Positions 1 to 64,000 of a stretch of DNA of 64,000 nucleotides are shown one piece after another. Source of the DNA: Zanthoxylum bungeanum (Eukaryota > Streptophyta > Magnoliopsida > Sapindales > Rutaceae); NCBI GenBank assembly GCA_019454045.1, contig SKCR01023795.1, positions 118,407 to 182,406 on the forward strand, read 5' to 3'. The position numbers and the translations under genes were made by a program. The notes below the pieces were generated by a model. It saw only the letters and a program-made list of their open reading frames with translations, was not told the origin of the DNA and ran no database searches. Each line of letters starts with the position of its first letter. Within the stretch, counting starts at the first letter, position 1.

Positions 1-979
1 ATTCAGAGATGGCAGTGAAAGGAGTTTTCGCTTCTAAGACGCATCTCAATATATTTCGTAACAAATTATATTTTTTCATTTCTTTTTGAATCATTTAAAT
101 TTGTGAATTCTTCATAATATTGATTAAAATTGATCTTCATATGCTCATTTGATATGTATTATCAACATACATAGTAACATATGATCATGGATTGTAAGTG
201 AAAATTTTATAATATTAACTTCTCTAGTTTGTTGGAGGTAACACCTAAAGGCAGTGGAATTTATGTTTTTATTCAAAAAAACTAGCCAAGTTTTTACTTA
301 GTAACCAAACATCTTACCTCAGCAAGCAATGATTGTTCACGTAAAATGGTAGGGCTTGAGTTGTTTTAATAAAAAAATAAAAAAGTGTGTGAATAAGTTC
401 GATTTCGTAATCTCTCTAACTCGAGCAATTAAGTCTATATGGGTGTTTTAACATTTAGTGCCCTAAAGTCAACTGGTTTGGGAGTCACTGGCCCAAAGCT
501 CGTTACATTGGTTAAAGAGAAAGCTTAAGGAAATCAGACACTTCTTCTTTTTGACATCTGAGATCCGAGCAATTAAGTATGTAGGGGTGTCTAAACACTT
601 AGTGCCCTAAAGCCAACTGGTTTGGGAGTCACTGGCCCAAAGCTCGTTATAAGGGTTAAATATGTATTATTATTAAAAAAATAAAAAAAAAAAACTATTT
701 TTGTATATAAATAAACTGCTATTGCCAAAAGGTGTGAATTCTGATATAACTTTAGGATAAAAATATTACTCTATTTTCAACAAGACCTGTGAATATTGTC
801 GGCACAATGAATTGATTGATACTTTCTCTTATGGGTGTATGGAAGAAGGGTAAAAAGTACATGAGAATTTACTTATTTGATAATTTAGAAAGAAAAAACA
901 GTTACTAACTTTGATAAGAATTTGTCTTTTTAGTTTTCGTTTAAATTACTGTGGACTAGTAATGAGCTGGTTGGGGTGT
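1..979 (+). mobile_element. Athila-like Ty3/gypsy 3' internal noncoding remnant
   Basis: No open frame is visible. The stretch matches, in reverse complement and with many substitutions, the 3' noncoding part of the Athila-like element at 60490-61300. It shares the duplicated block at 424-645 and then a run around 725-920 that mirrors 60780-60970. It ends in a purine-rich TGGTTGGGG tract just before 980, comparable to the polypurine tract at 60490-60501. The orientation is therefore + and the 5' part lies left of the window. This is inferred from visual alignment inside the window. Confidence 0.6.
424..645 (+). repeat. Two-copy conserved block (Athila-like 3' region)
   Basis: Two direct copies of a ~75-bp block lie at about 424-515 and 557-645. 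Each contains AGTGCCCTAAAG, CAACTGGTTTGGGAGTCACT and GGCCCAAAGCTCG. The same two-copy block occurs in reverse complement at 61073-61270. No open frame crosses it. Its function is unknown. Confidence 0.8.
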
Positions 980-2239
980 GATAGATATTAAAAAGTGTAC
1001 ATTTAATAAAAAGAAGGTAATCATTTTATAATTATAATTTTATTAATTCCATTAATTTAGCACATTAATGAAATAATACTTAAATTTATGTTTATGTATT
1101 TTTATTGTGATTTTTATTTCTTATATAGGTGAAATATTACTTTGGATGCATAACTAGAAAAATGGACATGACATTTGGATTTTGGAGACGAAAAACTTAA
1201 AAAGGTGTTCTAATAGTGTACAATTTCGGAAATTCTAACTTTGTACAATTTTCGTATTCTGGCCATAACTTTTTACCCCAAAATCGGATTGAGGCGATTC
1301 CAATTCCAGATGAAAAAAGACTCAAATATCTACAAGTATGCGGTTTATAAGATCTAGTTCTGAAATTTTCAAAACCTAAATTAATGAAAAATCTAAAGTG
1401 TGTTATATGTAATTATTAAGGACAAAAACAAGAAGAAGAAAAAAATATGGTGGAGGGTTGCCATCCACCTTTCGGTGGATGGTTCCCTCCATATGCAATT
1501 GTCTTCAATAACTGCATTTGTAATTTTTGAATATGTTGAAGGATGCTCAGCACTCATTTCCTGAGCCTGATTCCATAGTTTTCTCTTTGAAAATTTATGG
1601 AGTTTCAGCTCTTGTGTGTTTTTATTTTTTTTCAAGCTTTGTTGTAATTTCTTTTTCTTCCAATAATAAAATTATGCATGTTTTTATTCAAATCATGAGT
1701 AGCTAAATCCATCCTGCTGGGGTAAAGGGTGAAGCTCTTAATATGAGAATATAGATTAATCGTATTTATGTTATAATATATGAATTGTAATCTAAAGATT
1801 AATATTTATTTAAATTTGGATTAATTATTGACAAACTTTGTTACCGCCTATATGACTGGCATAATTGAGTACCTAACTAGACTTGTTATAGAAAAATGTT
1901 ATCATCGCCTTTGTGGCTGATTTTATATGTTTTAGCATACTTAATTCCTGAAATAAATTAACTGGGTAATAATGACAATTTATATATTATAACAAGTAAG
2001 ATTTCTCTAAATTTGAAATATTAAAAGTGGATTCCCAACCCCATCATTTTATTTTATTCTTGCAGTCCAATTTAAAATTGTCAATCACTTTAAACAATTC
2101 AATCTTTTTTATTTTCACTCGAATTATTATTTTATTTTATTAAATCTATTTCATGTGGATCGACCCTGGACTTACCGGGTTATTTTATCACTTCGACATT
2201 CTTATACTTGAGAATAAAGAACCACTTTATTAGTGTGTC
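980..2239 (+). mobile_element. Decayed Athila-like LTR
   Basis: It begins TGTGATAG after a purine-rich tract and ends near TTAGTGTGTCA. Parts correspond to the reverse complement of the LTR at 58377-60489. The stretch around 1255-1345 (ATCGGATTGAG, CAAATATCTACAAG) matches about 60130-60220. The 1850-1920 part carries ACCGCCTATATG and ATCGCCTTTGTGGCTG, as in the repeat cluster at 59300-59530. The 2155-2215 part (GGATCGACCC) matches the GGGATCGATAC region near 58450. The boundaries are approximate. Confidence 0.5.
1445..1494 (+). repeat. Strong inverted repeat (hairpin)
   Basis: GCCATCCACC and GGTGGATGG form a 9-bp stem around a TTTC loop. A small internal loop separates this from a second 6-bp stem, GGAGGG/CCCTCC, and flanking ATAT/ATAT can also pair. 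It lies inside the decayed LTR. It could be a transcribed hairpin or a relic of a smaller insertion. Confidence 0.75.
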
Positions 2240-46080: not shown

Positions 46081-46167
46081 CTTTTAGAATAAATAATAAA
46101 CATGTTACCTTTTTAATTGATTAACATATAATTTTAACCATTAAATATGCAACTTTGACCATTAAAT
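46080..46167. repeat. Degenerate AACCATTAAATATGCAAC repeats (left part)
   Basis: Short A-rich phrases repeat up to the LARD insertion and resume at 56279-56760. The element therefore landed inside this repeat block. Confidence 0.7.
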
Positions 46168-48779
46168 TATTGGGGTTTTGGCGCGGGCGCAGCAGAAACT
46201 CGCGGTTCGGGTGAAATCGTAATTTTAAAACTTTTTAAATTACCGAATAAATTATTCAATATCCAATATGAATAATTCATTCATATTTCACCTAAACATA
46301 TTTATTCGATATCAAATAACGACATAAATAGTTAAGAAACATCGCGAAACTTTTACGAAAATATTTTTCCACAAAATGGCATAAAACACGTTTTTGACCG
46401 AACCGACCACCCAATGCACATGAGGGCTGCCTAGGTCAGCCCCAACAGTACTAGAGAAGTTCATGGGCTGCCCGAACAGTGACCAATTCACTGTTTTGGC
46501 AGCCGTCACCCGGTTGGCTCAAAAGTCACCCGGTAACACCGTTTTCACTTATTTCAATTCTGAAACAATTTCCGGCAATTGTTCCAACACCCAAAACACA
46601 TCCAATACATTTATATGACATAATTTTCATCACAATAAACCCAGTTTTTCAAGATCTGATTTTGTAACAAAAATTATCAATATTTCATGCTTTGATCCAA
46701 TTTTCTTAACATTAATCCATTTAATCACAACACCGATCCAAGCCACCACCAATGAAGCACCCAAGAACAATTCTAGGCATTACAAGAGTGGTCATAACAC
46801 TCTAGAATGTTGCAATGGCAACATATCATCAAATGATCAAATTGAACAAATATTACAATAATATCTTTCAATTCAACTTTACACATGCATAACCCCTCCA
46901 TTCCATCTTCCAAATCCAAAACACCCAAATTCTTAGGAAAAGAAGAAACCCTAGAATCAATCTAGACGATCAAGAACAAGAAATATGCTTTCTAAGCTTA
47001 GGGATATTGAGGATTACCTTTAATTCTCTTAATTTCCTAAAGCTTTTTCTTGATTTTCTTCTTTTTCTTCCTTGAATCATCAAGCAAAATTTAGAAGGTA
47101 TTTGGAAGATCAAGTTTCGGCCATGGCAAGCCTTTTTTTTTTGAAAAGAATTTTTTTTCCTTTTAAAATGGCATTGCTGACTTTAGAAGGGCATTTTTGT
47201 CATTTTAGAAAAAATTAATTTGATCCAAAATCAAATTAATAAATCATGCCACATGTTACCAATTAATAATAAGCATGTGTGATAACAATTATCACAAATG
47301 AAAATTATCTAATTAAATTAAATATAAAGTTAAAGTAGTCAAAAATCAAATTTAACACTTTAACCTTAAATTTAATGCCAAGTGTAACCAATAATAATTA
47401 AACATATATTCCATAACAATTATGAATATATATATCAATTAATCATTTAAATATTTAACATTTAAATATCTAAATAATTAATTAATATAATTATTAATCC
47501 ATATGTATTTTATTTACATTAAATAAAATATGTATAGAAGTGACATGTGTCAAAATCTCATTTGAAAATTAATTAATGTGTATCTAATCAAATTATGTAT
47601 CAAATACAAATACACAATAATTACGATTGACCAAAAAAATACCTTTATGCATGCGTTTTCGTTTAACCGATTAAACGATTCGAATTAACTCATTTAATTT
47701 TATGAAGTATTATGAATAATCTATATTATTCATAACGCGTTGCCCAAGTGCTCAACGAGTACACTTCATATTGTGGGACTCTCTAAGTTTAGGTTTATCC
47801 GTCACGAAATCCAATTTCGTGTCCATAATTATCCACTCATGAATTATGACGACCACAAATAATCTCGCTAACTATGCAAGTCGAGGTCATTATATACGTA
47901 TAATCCCTCCGTCACAGGCTATCCATATTATACCTGGGATATAGATAAGAACATCAAATCCTTATGGTATAATATAGTCGACTTTCAAATTTACGATCTC
48001 TAAATAACACTCGGAACTCGCTTCCGAAGTTATATCACGGCCATGGATTTACTAGATCGCAAACACGTGTAGGATACCTATGCCCTGTACACAGGACTGA
48101 CAGATTCTATCTTGATACACACTGGATATCATGAGCATCAGTCCACACCCAACGAACAGGTAGAGGTCTGATCTAAATAGATCGGTGACGTACTGCCATC
48201 AAAGTGTGAATGATAACTCATATATCCACTGTGGTATCTCAAGTCGAAGGACCACTATGCTCGCTCAACTCGAGAAGATTCCTATTGACGTTGGTGTACC
48301 ATCTATTAGGAAATTTTCAGTGAGTCATTCAGTGTTTATCAAATAAACACCTACATGTCTATACGAGTCTCCCGAGACTCATGGTTCATTGGGATAAACC
48401 ATCGAACCAAGTCACGATATACGACATATATGTACTGGTCTCAACAGATTTTACTAACCAACCCGTGTTAGTAAATCTTGACCATGAACTTTATTTAAGG
48501 ATATACAACTTATAGTGACGCTTCCCAATGTCAATTACAAACTACGTTGTAACTGTGCACTACTCCTAGGGTCTTTGTCTAATATACACGTATCACTAAA
48601 TCAGATTTAGTTTCAATCTAATCATAATCAGATATCTAATCGTAACTAGATCAATATTTATATAAAAGACAAGAGGTGCTACCATTAAATAAGTAATATT
48701 ATGGAAAACGGTATTGTTCGTATTCATGAATCGGACATAAATACGATCCGGATTGGCACTCCAAGCACCAACCTTAATA
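46168..48779 (-). repeat. 3' LTR of the LARD
   Basis: It starts TATTGGGGTTTTGGCG (TG mutated to TA at the end) and ends CACCAACCTTAATA. Direct repeat of 53656-56278. Confidence 0.92.
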
Positions 48780-53651: not shown

Positions 53652-53655
53652 TTTT

Positions 53656-56278
53656 TGTTGGGGTTTTGGCGCGGGCGCAGCGGAAGCTCGCGGTTCGGGT
53701 GAAATCATAATTTTAAAACTTTTTAAATTACCGAATAAATTATTCAATATCCAATATGAATAATTCATTCACATTTCACCTAAATATATTTATTCGATAT
53801 CAAATAATGACATAAATAGTTAAGAAACATCGCGAAAATTTTACGAAAATATATTTTTCCGTAAAATGGCATAAAACACGTTTTTGACCGAACTGACCAA
53901 CCAATGCACATGAAGGATGCCCAGGTCAGCCCCAATAGTACTAGGGCAGTTCATGGGCTGCCCGAACAATGACCAATCACTGTTTTGGCAGCCCACCACG
54001 GTTGGCTCAAAATCCCCGGTAACGCCGTTTTTCGGTCACCCTTTTTCACCGTTGTTTCACTTATTTCAACTCCGAAACAATTTCCGGCAATTGTTCCAAC
54101 ACCCCAAACACATCCAATACATTTATATGACATAATTTTCATCACAATAAACCCAGGTTTTCCAGATCTGATTTTGTAACAAAAATTATCAATATTCATG
54201 CTTTAATAATTTTCTTAATATTAATCCAATTAATCACAACACCAATCCAAGCCACCACCAATAAAGCACCCAAGAACAATTATAGACATTAAAAGAGTGG
54301 TAATAACACTCTAGAATGGAAAATATCATCAAATGATCAAATTGAACAAATATTACAATAATATCTTTCAATTCAACTTTACACATGCAATAAGCCCTTC
54401 ATTCCAGCTTCCAAATCCAAAACACCCAAATTCTTAAGAAAATAAGAAACTCTAGAATCTATCTAGATTATCAAGAACAAGAAACATGCTTTCCAAGATT
54501 TGGGATATTGGGGATTACCTTTAATTCTCTAAATTTTCCTAAAGCTTTTTCTTGATTTTCTTCATTTTCTTCCTTGAATCATCAAGCAAATTTTGAGAGG
54601 TATTTGGAAGATTAAAAAAGGCTTTTTTTTTTTTCCTTTTAAAATGGCATTGCCGACTTTAGAAGGGCATTTTTGTCATTTTAGAAAAAAATAATTTGAT
54701 CCAAAATCAAATTAATAAATCATGCCACATGTTACCAATTAATATAAGCATGTGTGATAACAATTATCACAAATGAAAATTATCTAATTAAATTAAATAT
54801 AGTTAAAGTAGTCAAAAATCAATTTAACACTTTAACCTTAAATTTAATGCCAAGTGTAACCAATAATAATTAAACATATATTCCATAACAATTATGAAAT
54901 ATATATATATATATATATATATATATCAATTAATCATTTAAATATTTAACATTCAAATATCTAAATAATTAATTAATATAATTATTAATCCATATGTATT
55001 TTATTTACATTAAATAAAATATGTATAGAAGTGACATGTGTCAAAATCTCATTTAAAATTAATTAATATGTATCTAATCAAATTATGTATCAAATACAAA
55101 TACACAATATTACGATTGACCAAAAAAATACCCTTATTCATGCGTTTTCGTTTAACCGATTAAACGATTCGAATTAACTCATTTAATTTTATGAAGTATT
55201 ATGAATAATCTATATTATTCATAACGCGTTGCCCAAGTGCTCAACGAGTACACTTCATATTGTGGGACTCTCTAAGTTTAGGTTTATCCGTCACGAAATC
55301 CAATTTTAGTGTCCATAATTCACCCACTCATGAATTATGACGACCACAGATAATCTCTCTAAACTATGCAAGTCGAGGTCATTGCATACGTATAATCCCT
55401 CCGTCACAGGCTATCCATATTATACCTGAGATATAGATAAGAACATCAAATCCTTATTGTATAATATAGTCGACTTTCAAATTTACGATCTCTAAATAAC
55501 ACTCGGAGCTCGCTTCCGAAGTTATACCACGACCATAGATTTACTAGATCCCAAACACGTGTAGGATACCTATGCCCTGTACACATGACTGACAGATTCT
55601 ATCTTAATACGCACTGGATATCATGAGCATCAGTCCACACCCAACGAACAGGCGGAGGTCTGATCTAAATAGATCGGTGACGTGACTACCATCAAAGTAT
55701 GAAGGATAACTCATATATCCACTGTGGTATCTCAAGTCGAAAGACCACTATGCTCTCTCAACTCGAGAAGATTCATATTGACGTTGGTGTACCATCTTTT
55801 AGGAAATCTTTAATGAGTCGTTCAGTGTTTATCAAATAAACACCTACATGTCTATACGAGTCTCCCAAGACTCATGGTTCATTGGGATAAACCATCGAAC
55901 CAAGTCACGATATACGACATGTACTGGTCTCAGCGGATTTTACTAACCGACCCGTGTTAGTAAATCTTAACCATGAACTTTATTAAAGGATATACAACTT
56001 ATTGTGACGATTCCCAATGTCAATTACAAACTACGTTGTAACTGCGCACTACATTGTAAATCTACTAGGTCTTTGTCTAATATACACGTATCACTAAATC
56101 AGATTTAGTTTCAATATAATCATAATAAGATATCTAATCGTAATTAGATCGAATATATATATAAAAGACAAGAGGTGCTACTATTAAATAAGTAATATTA
56201 TGGAAAAATGTATTGTTCGTATTCATGAATCGGACATAAATACGATCCGGATTGGCACTCTGAGCACCAACCATAACA
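53656..56278 (-). repeat. 5' LTR of the LARD
   Basis: It starts TGTTGGGGTTTTGGCGCGGG and ends CACCAACCATAACA. Compared with the other LTR, an (AT)n run near 54897-54925 is expanded. Confidence 0.93.
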
Positions 56279-58376: not shown

Positions 58377-60489
58377 TGATGGGACAGGTGACCGGCGTAA
58401 TCACACACGTATAACGCAAGCGCCGTATCGTTCAAGTAGTATAAAAAGTATCGATCCCACGAGGACTTAAAACCTTTTTGTTATTAATTTATGGGGCCAA
58501 CTGATTACCAGTATCTAACAGGTTGTTTGATTGATTGATTTGAAATGACAATGATTCTAAATTTAAAACAAGTAAATAAAATTGCTTAAAAGTAGGTTGA
58601 GAAAAAATCCAAATTTATAAAAACTATCCAGGGTTGTGATTAATTCCAATATTATTAGAAGATGAAGTGATTATCTTAAAGTTGAGTAATATATTGATTT
58701 ATTAACCTGGAACACTAATTTATGTAAAAACCTCTTCCGATGGTCAATTTCAATACCTAGTATAATCCAATTGAACCATATGTCTATGTCAACCAAATTA
58801 CCTAGATTCATTAAGATTAAGTCCAATTATGGCTACCCCCGCCCGACAGGTATATTCCTATCCTGTAAGGAAATCTATTAAAAGGGTTATCTATCCTCAA
58901 GGAAGATCGTGGGTTATTGAGTCTAAGGTCTTAAACTTAAAATCCATATGTCTAGTTCATTTTAAGTTTACCTAATCAATTTTATTAATGGCCAGTTAAT
59001 AAAAAGCATAAGAATTAAGACTTTCAATAAATAAATCTTTAAATTACCCAACCTATAATCTAACCCCTTATAAACCGGTTATATTGAAATTCATCACAAC
59101 CCTAGATACTAACTTAGTTACAAACATAGCTATGGCTAATGAAAACTTAAAAGACATAAAATAAAAATGCTAAAAAGTAACTGCGAGAAAGTAAAAGCGG
59201 GAAAGTAAATGAAAATAAACTGCCAAGATAAAAGGAATTACTTTTACTAATTACTAACTTAGATATCTCCCTTAGTATAACATAATCACTTGTGAGATTA
59301 AAACCAACCGACCATATAGGCGGTACCTGATTAAGTCAAGTTAAGTCCGACCAGCCATAAATGCGGTAAAATTTGTCCATGAACCTGCCATGTAGGCGAT
59401 AAAGAATAACCAGCCATAAAGGCGGAACCAAAATTAAATTACCAACCGACCAATCTGGCGGTATCCTTGCTTAGTCAGGTTTAACAGTTTAAATTAAATA
59501 GCCCACCGACCAATATAGCGGTATTCCTTTTTAAGTCAAATTTTAGAATAGTGAATATGTTGTGTCTAAGGGAGATTAATCTAAGATAGTAACAGTAAAA
59601 GAATTACCTTTCACCTCGACAGAGGGAAGTTACCTCCTCATGGTTGAAAAATAAAAACTGAAAAAGTAAAGAAAGGAAAGTGTTATGCGTAAAAGTAAAT
59701 TACGGAAAGTAAAACTGAAAAAGTAAAGAAAAGAAAGTGCGAAATTGAAAATTAATTACTGAAAACTAAAAATAAACAAACTAGATACAATCTTTTTATT
59801 TTTTCATTAAGGATTTCAAAGAAGAAAGTATGAATTTTACAAATGAAATGGTTGGTATTTATAGGCAAAATTTTGCCACCATCAAATCATCAATCAATTT
59901 CTCCACCAAATCCATTATTAATTTCTCCACTAATTACTCCACCAAATCCATAATTGCTCCACTAATTTCTTATCTTGTTTGGTGGTGATTTGATAATTTT
60001 TATTATTATTTATTAATTAATATTTTGCTTTGAAAATGATTGATAATGACTTTTAATAATTACACTCCACACACTTCTGGATGGTTCATCAATTTCGGTC
60101 ATGAAATCATCAGAATTTGAAAATATGTTCTCTTTCAAAGTTGTAGATCTTTGAGTCTTCTTTAATCTGGAACTTGAATCAGCTCAATCCGATATCTGAG
60201 TAAACAGTTTTGCCCAACATACGACAGATGCGCAAAACTGGAATTTCCAAAACTGCACTTCGTCAAAAACGCCATTTCAAGTTTCCAATCTCCAAAATTA
60301 ATATATCAAGTCCAATAATTGCCCTTATTTGATCCACATTTCGTCATAAATGATTTCATTGAGTCCCGATATTATTTTATCTGCAAAATAAAATAAAACA
60401 TATCAAAACGTTCATCAAACCCGAGAAACTAAACAAAATATTATATAAGTAAAAGGGGCGGTAAATATTGATATATTTTCCGCTCATCA
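58377..60489 (-). repeat. 3' LTR of the Athila-like element
   Basis: 2113 bp, bounded by TGATG at the left and CATCA at the right, with a polypurine tract directly outside the right end. It contains the GTATCGTTCAAGTAG and GTATCGATCCCACGAGGAC phrases often seen near Athila LTR ends. The partner LTR is outside the window, so the left end rests on the inverted terminal bases only. Confidence 0.72.
59300..59530 (-). repeat. Six-fold ACCGCC-type short repeats in the LTR
   Basis: Phrases such as CCGACCATATAGGCGGTACC, CCAGCCATAAATGCGGT, CTGCCATGTAGGCGAT and CCGACCAATCTGGCGGTATC occur at 30-60 bp spacing. Relatives in the opposite orientation lie near 1850-1920 in the other Athila-like LTR. Confidence 0.75.
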
Positions 60490-60501
60490 CACCCCCAAAC
60501 C
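60490..60501 (-). other. Polypurine tract of the Athila-like element
   Basis: CACCCCCAAACC on the + strand, that is GGTTTGGGGGTG on the element strand, ends exactly at the LTR. Confidence 0.8.
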
Positions 60502-61072
60502 TAACATTTTGCTAGTCCTCGAGCAAAACAACAAAATAAAAATTAAAATTAAACTAAGCCAATTTCGTAGGGATCACGGTTGCATTTAGCGTATGCAACA
60601 AGCCTTTAAACCCCTAGGTGTCCCTAGTGGACGAGTTGTAGTCTCGTGAGGGTTTACAACAACGATACCCACAAACGTTTTATAAAAGTAAAAAGTTAGT
60701 TAAAACTAATGCACACAAAAGCAAAAAGACAAGAGAAAATAGAATAAAGAAGTTAATGACTAATCAAGTGAAACTTCTACTCCAAGTTACTAGTTGTTTT
60801 GTTTCTTTCTAAACTACCGAATAAGTAAATTCTCCGATTATATTTACCATTCTCCATATACACAGCCAGCAAAATATTAATCAACTCATTTTTGCCCACA
60901 ACAGTCACAAGTGCAATTGATAAGAGAATAATATTTTTGTCCTAAGGTTCTATTAGATTTCACACCTTTTTATAGTAATGGAGTAAATTTTTTTTTTTTT
61001 TCTGATTTTTTTCATTTTTTCTTTCTTTTTTCTCTATTTTTTATTTATATACAATATCTTCTGTCTATGTAG

Positions 61073-61270: not shown

Positions 61271-61823
61271 TAACACGGATCTTAGATGCTTTATTTTTTA
61301 TTATTTTTTTTTACTCCATCACTTTTTGAGATGCTTCCTCCAATTAAACTATAGCACTGAATATTACAATCCTGTTAGTTACAGCTCATGTCCGTATGTT
61401 ACTATACATGTTGATAATACCTGCCAACAAAGCATATGAAGATCCATTTTAGTCAGTTTTATGGAGAATCTACAAATTAAATAATTCAAAAGGAAATAAA
61501 CAAAAATTAACTTGTTTCGAAATAGGTTTGAAATACGTCTCAGGAGTGGAAACTCCTTACTCAGCTATCTCTTACCAATTTCACCTTTTTAGTCAAAATA
61601 AAAACACAAAAACACAAATTTTTTGTAATTTTTGAAAATTTTTCAATTTTTTTTGTATTTTTTTCGAAATTTTGGACTAAAATAAAAACAACACACAAAC
61701 TAAAAACAAGGTACTAATCAACTAATTCCCTCCCCCAAACCTAAATGAGACATTGTCCCCAATGTCTTAAACAGTAAAAGGAGAGTTAAGAAGGTCATAC
61801 CTGGTTAGCTGAATCTACAGAAA

Positions 61824-62477
61824 TTAAAGGTTAAGATCTAGATTAATCCGACGCCTCTTACCACGATCGTCCCCAGACCAATTTATCTTTGAAAGGATAG
61901 GGTCAACTTGAGGTTCATAGGCTATGAGTTGGTCTATTAGATCCGGAGCAGTTCTGGCAGTAAAGAGGAGTTCTTTCAAAGGTTTTGACACGAACCCATT
62001 TCTCGAGCTCGAGCATCACAGAAACACACAAGAAAATCATAAAATCCATCAACGTTGAGCAGTCCAAGCGTTTTTGGTGTATGTTCAGGTTCGCCCAAGA
62101 TAATACTATAAATATTTCCTCCAATGTACCTAAGCCACCTGGCAAAGCGATAAAAGCATTAGCACGGTTAATCATTTCTACCAGTCGTTCAGACATACCT
62201 GGCACGATCAGTTCCTCTCCGTTTGATGATCCAATAAGATTTGCCTCTGCCAAGGGTTTTGGGATGATTCCCAAGACATGACTGCCTCCTTCCGTACAGT
62301 CTTTGAAACGATCCCCATTAATTCAAGATTGCCTCCGCCATATATTAAGTGCATATTCCTTGCAGCTAAGACTCGACCCAATTCCTGTGCTGCTTCTATG
62401 TATTGTGGTTTAGTACCAACACTACTACCGCAAAACACACAAATGTTTTCAACTCGTCTTCTTGAAGTGGCTTCCAT
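61824..62477 (-). pseudogene. LOG: Intronless LOG-like cytokinin-activating enzyme, cargo of retroelement
   Basis: The minus-strand ATG is at 62475-62477 and the stop at 61824-61826, about 217 codons, the usual length of LONELY GUY proteins. These hydrolyse cytokinin riboside monophosphates to free cytokinin and ribose phosphate. Visible family features: VENICVFCGSSVGTKPQYIE, HLIYGGGNLELMG, the active-site stretch SERLVEMINRANAFIALPGG followed by LGTLEEIF (PGGxGTxxE), and LDCSTLMDF/VDGFYDFL in the next phase. Three frameshifts (near 62270, 62070 and 61995) break it. Host LOG genes have several introns; this one has none, which suggests capture through RNA. It follows the cysteine-rich ORF by ~265 bp in the same orientation. 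The last residues contain LDLNL. Confidence 0.88.
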
Positions 62478-62742: not shown

Positions 62743-63292
62743 CTATGCGTCAGGGACAAGCTTCCCATCCAATTTTCTTATAAATTGGCAAACAGGGTCT
62801 TTTTGAGTCAGATTCCCAAGACTTAACTGTTGTCTTTCTTTTAGAAATTGTGTATGTAATTGGCGAATGGCTATATGAACATATCCACTGGGATGCGTCT
62901 CAAGAGTCGAAGATAGATCATCTAAAGACTCCTTACTCAAGCCATCCCTAATGAATTTAATTTTGTCTTCTCGATTATCAGACACCATTCCTAAAGAACG
63001 ACAACGAGTATTACACATTCCAACGTGCACATTTGAAACAAACACCCATTTTCTTAGCTATACGTTTCTTTGCATAGGTGCTTCTTCCAAATCCAGGTAA
63101 ATAAGAATTACAAGACTCAGAATACTCACCTGCTAAACGAATTCGTGCTTCGATTACCCAACAAATATCAGTAGGAATACCTTTGTTCATCAATAGTCTC
63201 ATCCGTTCCAAGCGAGCTTTGTAAACTTTCATCAGAGATTTTTGAGGGAGAGAAGGAAATTGCTTGTGAAGATTTACGAGAGCTTCTTCCAT
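62743..63292 (-). pseudogene. Cysteine-rich basic ORF, plant-virus CRP/NABP-like
   Basis: The minus-strand ATG is at 63290-63292 and the stop at 62743. It is about 183 codons with one frameshift near 63015. The N-terminal ~70 residues are helical-looking (KVYKARLERMRLLMNKG, WVIEARIRLAGEY). Then comes a basic patch, GRSTYAKKRIAKK, immediately followed by a compact cysteine cluster (CFKC, then CNTRC in the next phase), NREDKIKFIRDGL and a Gln/Leu-rich tail. The order GRSxYAxxR, CxxC, CxxxC resembles the cysteine-rich nucleic-acid-binding proteins of carla- and vitivirus-type plant viruses, several of which suppress RNA silencing. This is recognition by motif, not a database result. It could instead be an unrelated zinc-binding protein. 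Confidence 0.6.
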
Positions 63293-63398: not shown

Positions 63399-64000
63399 CT
63401 AGACGTGACTTTTCGAACGTTTAGGCTGGATCTGAAAGTGTGACAGTTTCTTTTTGACGCTCCAACGGTTCTCCCCAATAATGCTTAACCCGCTGACTGT
63501 TAACTTTGAATGTGTTTTGGTATTGGGATCCAGTAACTCAACAGCTCCATGTGGTAAAACCTGAGTGATCACAAATGGACCTGACCACCTTGATTTCAAC
63601 TTTCCAGGGAAAAGTTTCAACCTCGAGTTGTACAACAACACCTGTTGCCTTGGTTCCAACTGTCTGTGCACTATTTTTCGGTCATGCCATCTCTTGGTCT
63701 TTTCTTTGTATAGTCTGGCATTCTCATAAGCCTGTAGGCGAAATTCCTCAAATTCATTGAGTTGGTGAAGTCTTTTCTCTCCTGCAGCTTATGGATCAAA
63801 ATTCAACTTCTTCAGTGCCCAGTACGCCTTATGTTCAAGCTCAACTGGTAGATGGCATGCTTTCCCAAACACCAATCGATATGGTGACATACCAATGAGT
63901 GTCTTGTAAGCTGTACGGTAGGCCCATAATGCATCGTCCAGTTTTTGTAGACCAATCCCTCCTTGTTGATCCAACGGTTCTTTCCAAGATTCTTTTGATT
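63399..64000 (-). pseudogene. Athila-type integrase C-terminal region
   Basis: It enters from the right edge in frame: [20 protein letters not shown] and [17 protein letters not shown], a TAA stop at 63789-63791, then the same phase continues through [12 protein letters not shown] and [20 protein letters not shown] to the stop at 63399-63401. Only one nonsense change breaks this stretch. These segments cover the end of the integrase core and the GPFVIT-type C-terminal domain. The catalytic residues lie outside the window. Ty3/gypsy of the Athila lineage by these phrases. Confidence 0.9.

Follow-up and report, generated by a model that had tools for sequence, protein, structure and literature searches.

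It has long been asked how long terminal repeat (LTR) retrotransposons persist in plants despite RNA-directed silencing, and few counter-defences coded by the elements themselves are known. Flexiviruses encode cysteine-rich proteins (CRPs; Pfam families Carla_C4, PF01623, and Viral_NABP, PF05515) in which a basic patch is followed by a four-cysteine cluster. These proteins suppress silencing at varying strength, and that of chrysanthemum virus B is also a transcription factor and induces hyperplasia (PMC12172455). Here we describe the end of an LTR retrotransposon that lies in a 64,000-nucleotide stretch of the Zanthoxylum bungeanum genome (contig SKCR01023795.1, positions 118,407 to 182,406; hereafter the window) and includes a broken gene for a likely relative of the viral CRPs. 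Our best explanation, which we hold to be probable, is that a high-copy element of the Athila type carries a 182-residue relative of flexiviral CRPs as one of its regular genes, with a putative role in silencing or transcription. The Athila name is our assumption from motifs; among reverse transcriptase, RNase H and integrase, only integrase was seen.

Extra open reading frames (ORFs) between pol and the 3′ LTR are an established feature of Athila Ty3/gypsy elements, which the present element resembles in this position and in its primer-binding site, LTRs and integrase. Those published are Athila ORF-1, transposase-like or env-like, and none is described as a flexivirus-type CRP in the sections of the papers used here (PMC6317226, PMC11728184, PMC7264820). 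Genes of the CRP's size fell outside a 2019 survey of extra ORFs in plant LTR elements, whose lower limit was 250 codons (PMC6317226). Among other cargo, Gypsy elements of Citrus and Populus have been published with a YgdH/LOG domain, which is the same type of cargo as the LOG-like gene found here, although the part of that paper used here mentions no CRP beside it; Gypsy LTR elements of Phalaenopsis have AlkB as an extra ORF, likewise a domain type that flexiviruses use, but the domain is a different one and its demethylase activity was demonstrated (both PMC9289625). The VANDAL elements, which are DNA transposons, encode anti-silencing proteins, and the strategy would be the same if the CRP counters silencing (PMC11728184). 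No report of a flexivirus-type CRP in a retrotransposon was found in the literature searched, which comprised open-licence papers without their supplements. The presence of such a protein among the extra ORFs of an element thus appears to be new; LOG cargo was already known.

Two minus-strand frames within 63292-62743 are one broken ORF. An earlier note on this DNA, made from the sequence alone, had described a basic patch, then a cysteine cluster, then NREDKIKFIRDGL, interrupted by one frameshift, and all of these are in place. The N-terminal frame has GRSTYAKKR a short way before CFKC, the C-terminal frame contains CNTRC and NREDKIKFIRDGL, and the cluster split between them reads CxxCx4Cx3C. 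Aligned to an intact relative, P0001, the two frames of the window's own locus (L011) correspond to residues 1-92 and 93-182, with a single break inside the cysteine cluster. The ORF is more than a chance reading, because the C-terminal frame by itself retrieves 284 proteins at E≤1e-3; among the 120 of these that were listed, the best is 96% identical over 87% of the query and many are 182 residues long. The N-terminal extension of about 70 residues proposed in the earlier note exists but was overstated: in intact relatives the Viral_NABP match begins at residue 36-38, leaving only about 35 residues outside it. About 60 C-terminal residues, which that note did not mention, also lie beyond the match. 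One further copy, L012 (G000:C31675), has its CRP broken at the same residue as the window copy. The N piece of its LOG is protein-identical to the window's, and L012 may be a duplicate locus, an artefact of the assembly that doubles the sequence, or a copy that was mobilised in trans.

The likeness to viral families is detectable in the window itself, where the N-terminal frame scores 24.2 bits for Carla_C4, above the cut-off of 20.9, and 15.5 for Viral_NABP, below the cut-off of 23; the C-terminal frame has no Pfam match. The intact P0001 exceeds the cut-offs of both families, and its match spans residues 38-120, beyond the cysteines alone. In an initial alignment of 20 proteins, every one matches both families at E≤0.01. 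For a second alignment (A2), 173 listed relatives were reduced to the 100 of 175-206 residues, thinned to 87 and then to 84, to which L002, a contig described below, was added. Among these 85 diverse intact proteins, 75 match Carla_C4 and 74 match Viral_NABP at E≤1e-3 (best 3.7e-8 and 1.1e-8). KKRR is near-invariant across the alignment, and CxxCx4Cx3C occurs in 90 of the 100 listed relatives of that length. The two viral families are those that the earlier note had named, and the lack of any viral profile similarity, which it had said would tell against its proposal, was not what the search of the two frames and their relatives returned. We consider homology of the element CRP to the flexiviral CRPs likely. 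We class it only as related to a viral CRP, since it is encoded in an LTR retrotransposon and not in an RNA virus genome; it also differs in its length of 182 residues and in having a C-terminal part of its own, and it is known here from its sequence.

The CRP gene belongs to an LTR retrotransposon and is situated between integrase and the 3′ LTR. In all 28 copies chosen by similarity to the CRP, integrase adjoins it, and in 27 of them integrase, CRP and LOG follow on one strand in that order, the other (L006) being cut by a contig end. A further set was chosen by the N piece of the window's LOG. It holds 27 distinct copies, including the window's own and a twin and excluding one copy that is present twice (L015 and L045); 15 have integrase, CRP and LOG, and 17 have a CRP. 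One complete copy (L004/L019/L023) has TG...CA ends, a primer-binding site, a polypurine tract, a pair of LTRs that are 98.4% identical over 2043 columns (17 mismatches) and AAGCA on both flanks, a 5-bp target duplication. In a second copy the LTRs are 97.2% identical over 1866 columns (19 mismatches), with no match for the initial 236 bases of its 5′ LTR. Both copies have TGGCGCCGTTGCCGG or a one-base variant within a few bases of the 5′ LTR, a primer-binding site type that we take to be Athila-like. Taking 1.3e-8 substitutions per site per year, the LTR mismatches correspond to roughly 0.3-0.4 million years. The linkage to an Athila-type retrotransposon put forward in the earlier note is thus borne out by integrase adjacency, LTR pair, primer-binding site and target duplication, and the adjacency test did not return the contrary outcome that it had named, host genes unlinked to retroelements.

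Unlike the broken copy in the window, many copies elsewhere in this genome are intact and under selection. A search of the 3.96-Gb genome gave 46,456 initial candidates, and at the 150 places that were scored nearly the whole protein is matched at 90-99% identity, 122 of them without a stop. Calculated from summed values, the ratio of nonsynonymous to synonymous substitution (dN/dS) comes to 0.21 for 28 intact CRP copies (27 chosen by CRP similarity and one by LOG); pooled, it is 0.160 for the 27 CRP-chosen copies. Because choosing by protein similarity lowers dN, we also counted 17 LOG-chosen copies, broken ones included, for which the pooled ratio is 0.255. A more distant comparison is offered by L002 (DAIEQH010000041.1), an independent contig of different origin, in which a 496-residue integrase-domain ORF is followed by an intact 182-residue CRP and then by a variant of a conserved motif described below; no LOG follows the CRP on this contig. 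Its CRP differs from those of this genome by a median dN of 0.228 and dS of 0.845. In frame, the proportions of nonsynonymous and synonymous differences are 0.196 and 0.507, whereas one base off they are 0.245 and 0.309, a much weaker contrast. We conclude that the CRP is under purifying selection. L002 is filed within a bacterial metagenome assembly (Nomurabacteria) and is a plant retrotransposon contig.

The named sources among the listed CRP relatives are Xanthoceras, Populus, Acer, Parasponia, Citrus, Rhamnella and Orobanche, genera that we take to represent Sapindales, Malpighiales, Rosales and Lamiales. Some clusters of relatives represent many sequences (566, 126 and 109), which fits mobile copies. 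A single length and layout across these orders, and the placement of L002 and this genome's copies in separate parts of the tree, speak for a history in which Athila-type elements of plants have long had the gene and flexiviruses acquired theirs from an element. The tree holds no viral CRPs, however, and is unrooted against them; we regard this direction of transfer as a real but rather unlikely alternative.

Convergence is somewhat less likely still. Under this reading the element would code for a protein, of the zinc-knuckle or another type, that packages element RNA and is viral-like only in its cysteine spacing and basic charge. The C-x2-C-x4-C-x3-C arrangement is near that of a zinc knuckle. 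As a control, five of ten reversed CRPs were scanned; none matched a viral family, and all five matched Stress-antifung below its cut-off (best 22.5 bits against 25, E 1.9e-4), one of them also matching UPF0236 at 15.6 bits, which indicates that cysteine spacing alone can yield E values near 1e-4. Against convergence, no zinc-knuckle family is among those listed for the 85 members, and the viral match extends well past the cysteines and reaches 1e-8.

Other results besides the reversed control weigh against a viral relative that is a regular gene of the element. At E≤1e-3, 10 of the 85 members miss Carla_C4 and 11 miss Viral_NABP, and the L002 CRP, while above the Viral_NABP cut-off, falls just below that of Carla_C4 (19.8 against 20.9). 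Structure comparison gave no significant viral match, a result that counts in favour of convergence as well. A first AlphaFold model, built from 20 rows, was poor (pLDDT 56), and a second from 85 rows was middling (pLDDT 70.6, pTM 0.34); in one Foldseek search 13 of the first 16 matches were flexivirus nucleic-acid-binding, RNA-binding or silencing-suppressor proteins with low TM-scores and a best E of 0.051, and in another the first three of 16 were flexiviral silencing suppressors with a best E of 0.32. A search of viral contigs with the zinc-finger stretch gave 49 pattern matches and no relative, and hence no viral CRP for direct comparison. Among the LOG-chosen copies, 10 of 27 show no CRP in the fetched stretch, so that shortened or decayed derivatives exist, and only 3 have an open CRP; the CRP is thus dispensable for copying in trans or was lost afterwards. 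In separate searches, the N-terminal frame matched no PDB sequence up to E 10, and the sole locus retrieved from viral contigs with the CRP alignment (L001) was rejected as a chance match on a contig that is phage-like by its ORFs.

That the CRP belongs to a plant host gene family adjoining an element in the window by chance is highly improbable: plant chromosome annotations do list some relatives as hypothetical proteins, but the 28 adjoining integrases, the complete element with its target duplication and the clusters of up to 566 sequences contradict it, and a host gene unlinked to elements is rejected both in this genome and in L002.

In the window, the minus strand shows the 3′ end of the element (Table 1). 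Because the contig stops at window position 64000, only the 3′ half of this copy is visible.

Table 1. Features of the element end, in window coordinates and 5′ to 3′ order along the element
Feature	Position	Strand	Remarks
Integrase, C-terminal part	63399..63998	-	ORF pieces 63998-63789 and 63788-63399, truncated by contig end
CRP, N-terminal frame	63011..63292	-	ATG at 63292, stop ending 63011; helical N part, basic patch, first CxxC; Carla_C4 match
CRP, C-terminal frame	62743..63057	-	CxxxC, NREDKIKFIRDGL, C-terminal domain; 284 protein relatives
Broken LOG-like gene, TIGR00730 family	61824..62477	-	Pieces in several frames; Lysine_decarbox 1.7e-20 on 62322-61915
Conserved motif CATTGGGGACAATG, then G-rich tract	61751..61764	-	Exact match in window
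Polypurine tract GGTTTGGGGGTG, adjoining 3′ LTR	60490..60505 (approximate)	-	
3′ LTR, TGATGAGCGG...GGTCA	58389..60489	-	End common to three copies, which diverge directly beyond

Neither integrase piece of the window passes a Pfam cut-off, the highest score being 13.4 bits for SH3_11, whose cut-off is 25. We name them integrase because they are similar (59% over 159 codons by tblastx) to the L002 ORF, which bears rve (2.4e-16) and Integrase_H2C2 (1.4e-12) domains in Pfam. The conserved motif is present in seven of eight loci, the eighth (L006) being cut short, and L002 has a one-base variant; between motif and polypurine tract lies about 1.3 kb without a recognised gene. Elsewhere in the window, positions 5-1419 (plus strand) hold a second, related element end, whose alignable pieces are 71-85% identical to 61572-60053 (minus strand). 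A direct repeat of about 2.6 kb (46167-48777 and 53655-56276; 91% identical, 7.5 kb apart) is perhaps the LTR pair of another element. Arrays of tandem units of about 82 bases lie at 5.6-7.7 kb and 12.6-14.6 kb, in opposite orientation and up to about 82% mutually identical.

The earlier note had set the CRP between integrase and LOG. The order stands, but the LOG remnant lies inside the element, not beside it: an outside neighbour was rejected, as the remnant is upstream of the polypurine tract and 3′ LTR with synteny in 27 of 28 copies. The complete copy L004 has an open LOG of 217 residues (L004:2309-2959) in the same place as the window's broken one. It scores 172.8 bits against TIGR00730 (cut-off 96.35) and 120.9 against PF03641 (cut-off 27), with PGGxGTxxE present, and it fails the NCBI LOG equivalog NF058542 (113.4 bits against 300); its stretch MSERLLEM is unlike that in two Arabidopsis chains. 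From these scores the enzyme gene appears only LOG-like, short of the LOG equivalog. An open LOG occurs in 6 of the 28 CRP-chosen copies, and in none of the 27 chosen by the broken LOG piece of the window; dN/dS among six open LOGs is 0.18. Of 120 listed LOG relatives, 98 have 205-255 residues. An LxLxL terminus is present in 78 of the 98, basic residues cluster within the final 20 positions in 93, and PGGxGTxxE is kept in 88; these counts cover relatives regardless of element context and are not a claim that the tail is peculiar to elements. LxLxL is an EAR-like motif.

By analogy with the viral proteins, the CRP would be made from the element's RNA, bind nucleic acid through its basic patch and four-cysteine cluster, and blunt small-RNA silencing of the element or alter host transcription. 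Suppression of silencing is a plausible role, at a little short of an even chance; transcriptional control without suppression seems doubtful, and RNA packaging or another function would account for the rest. The LOG-type enzyme paired with the CRP in this genome might raise active cytokinin. On a broader view, tentative and on balance unlikely, Athila-type elements of flowering plants would hold a functional host-manipulation cassette in common with RNA viruses: an anti-silencing or reprogramming CRP and, in some lineages, a LOG-type enzyme whose tail carries basic residues and LxLxL. The two together would promote proliferating cells, where silencing of the element is weaker. On this view the CRP gene would also have moved between retrotransposons and RNA viruses, perhaps in the direction of the virus.

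On the simplest reading, the element would code for a protein of its own that counters the host's defence or reprograms the host. As a relative of viral silencing suppressors that is conserved and selected within an element, the CRP offers a specific target for testing and, if the reading is true, would be a documented case of genes passing between RNA viruses and retrotransposons.
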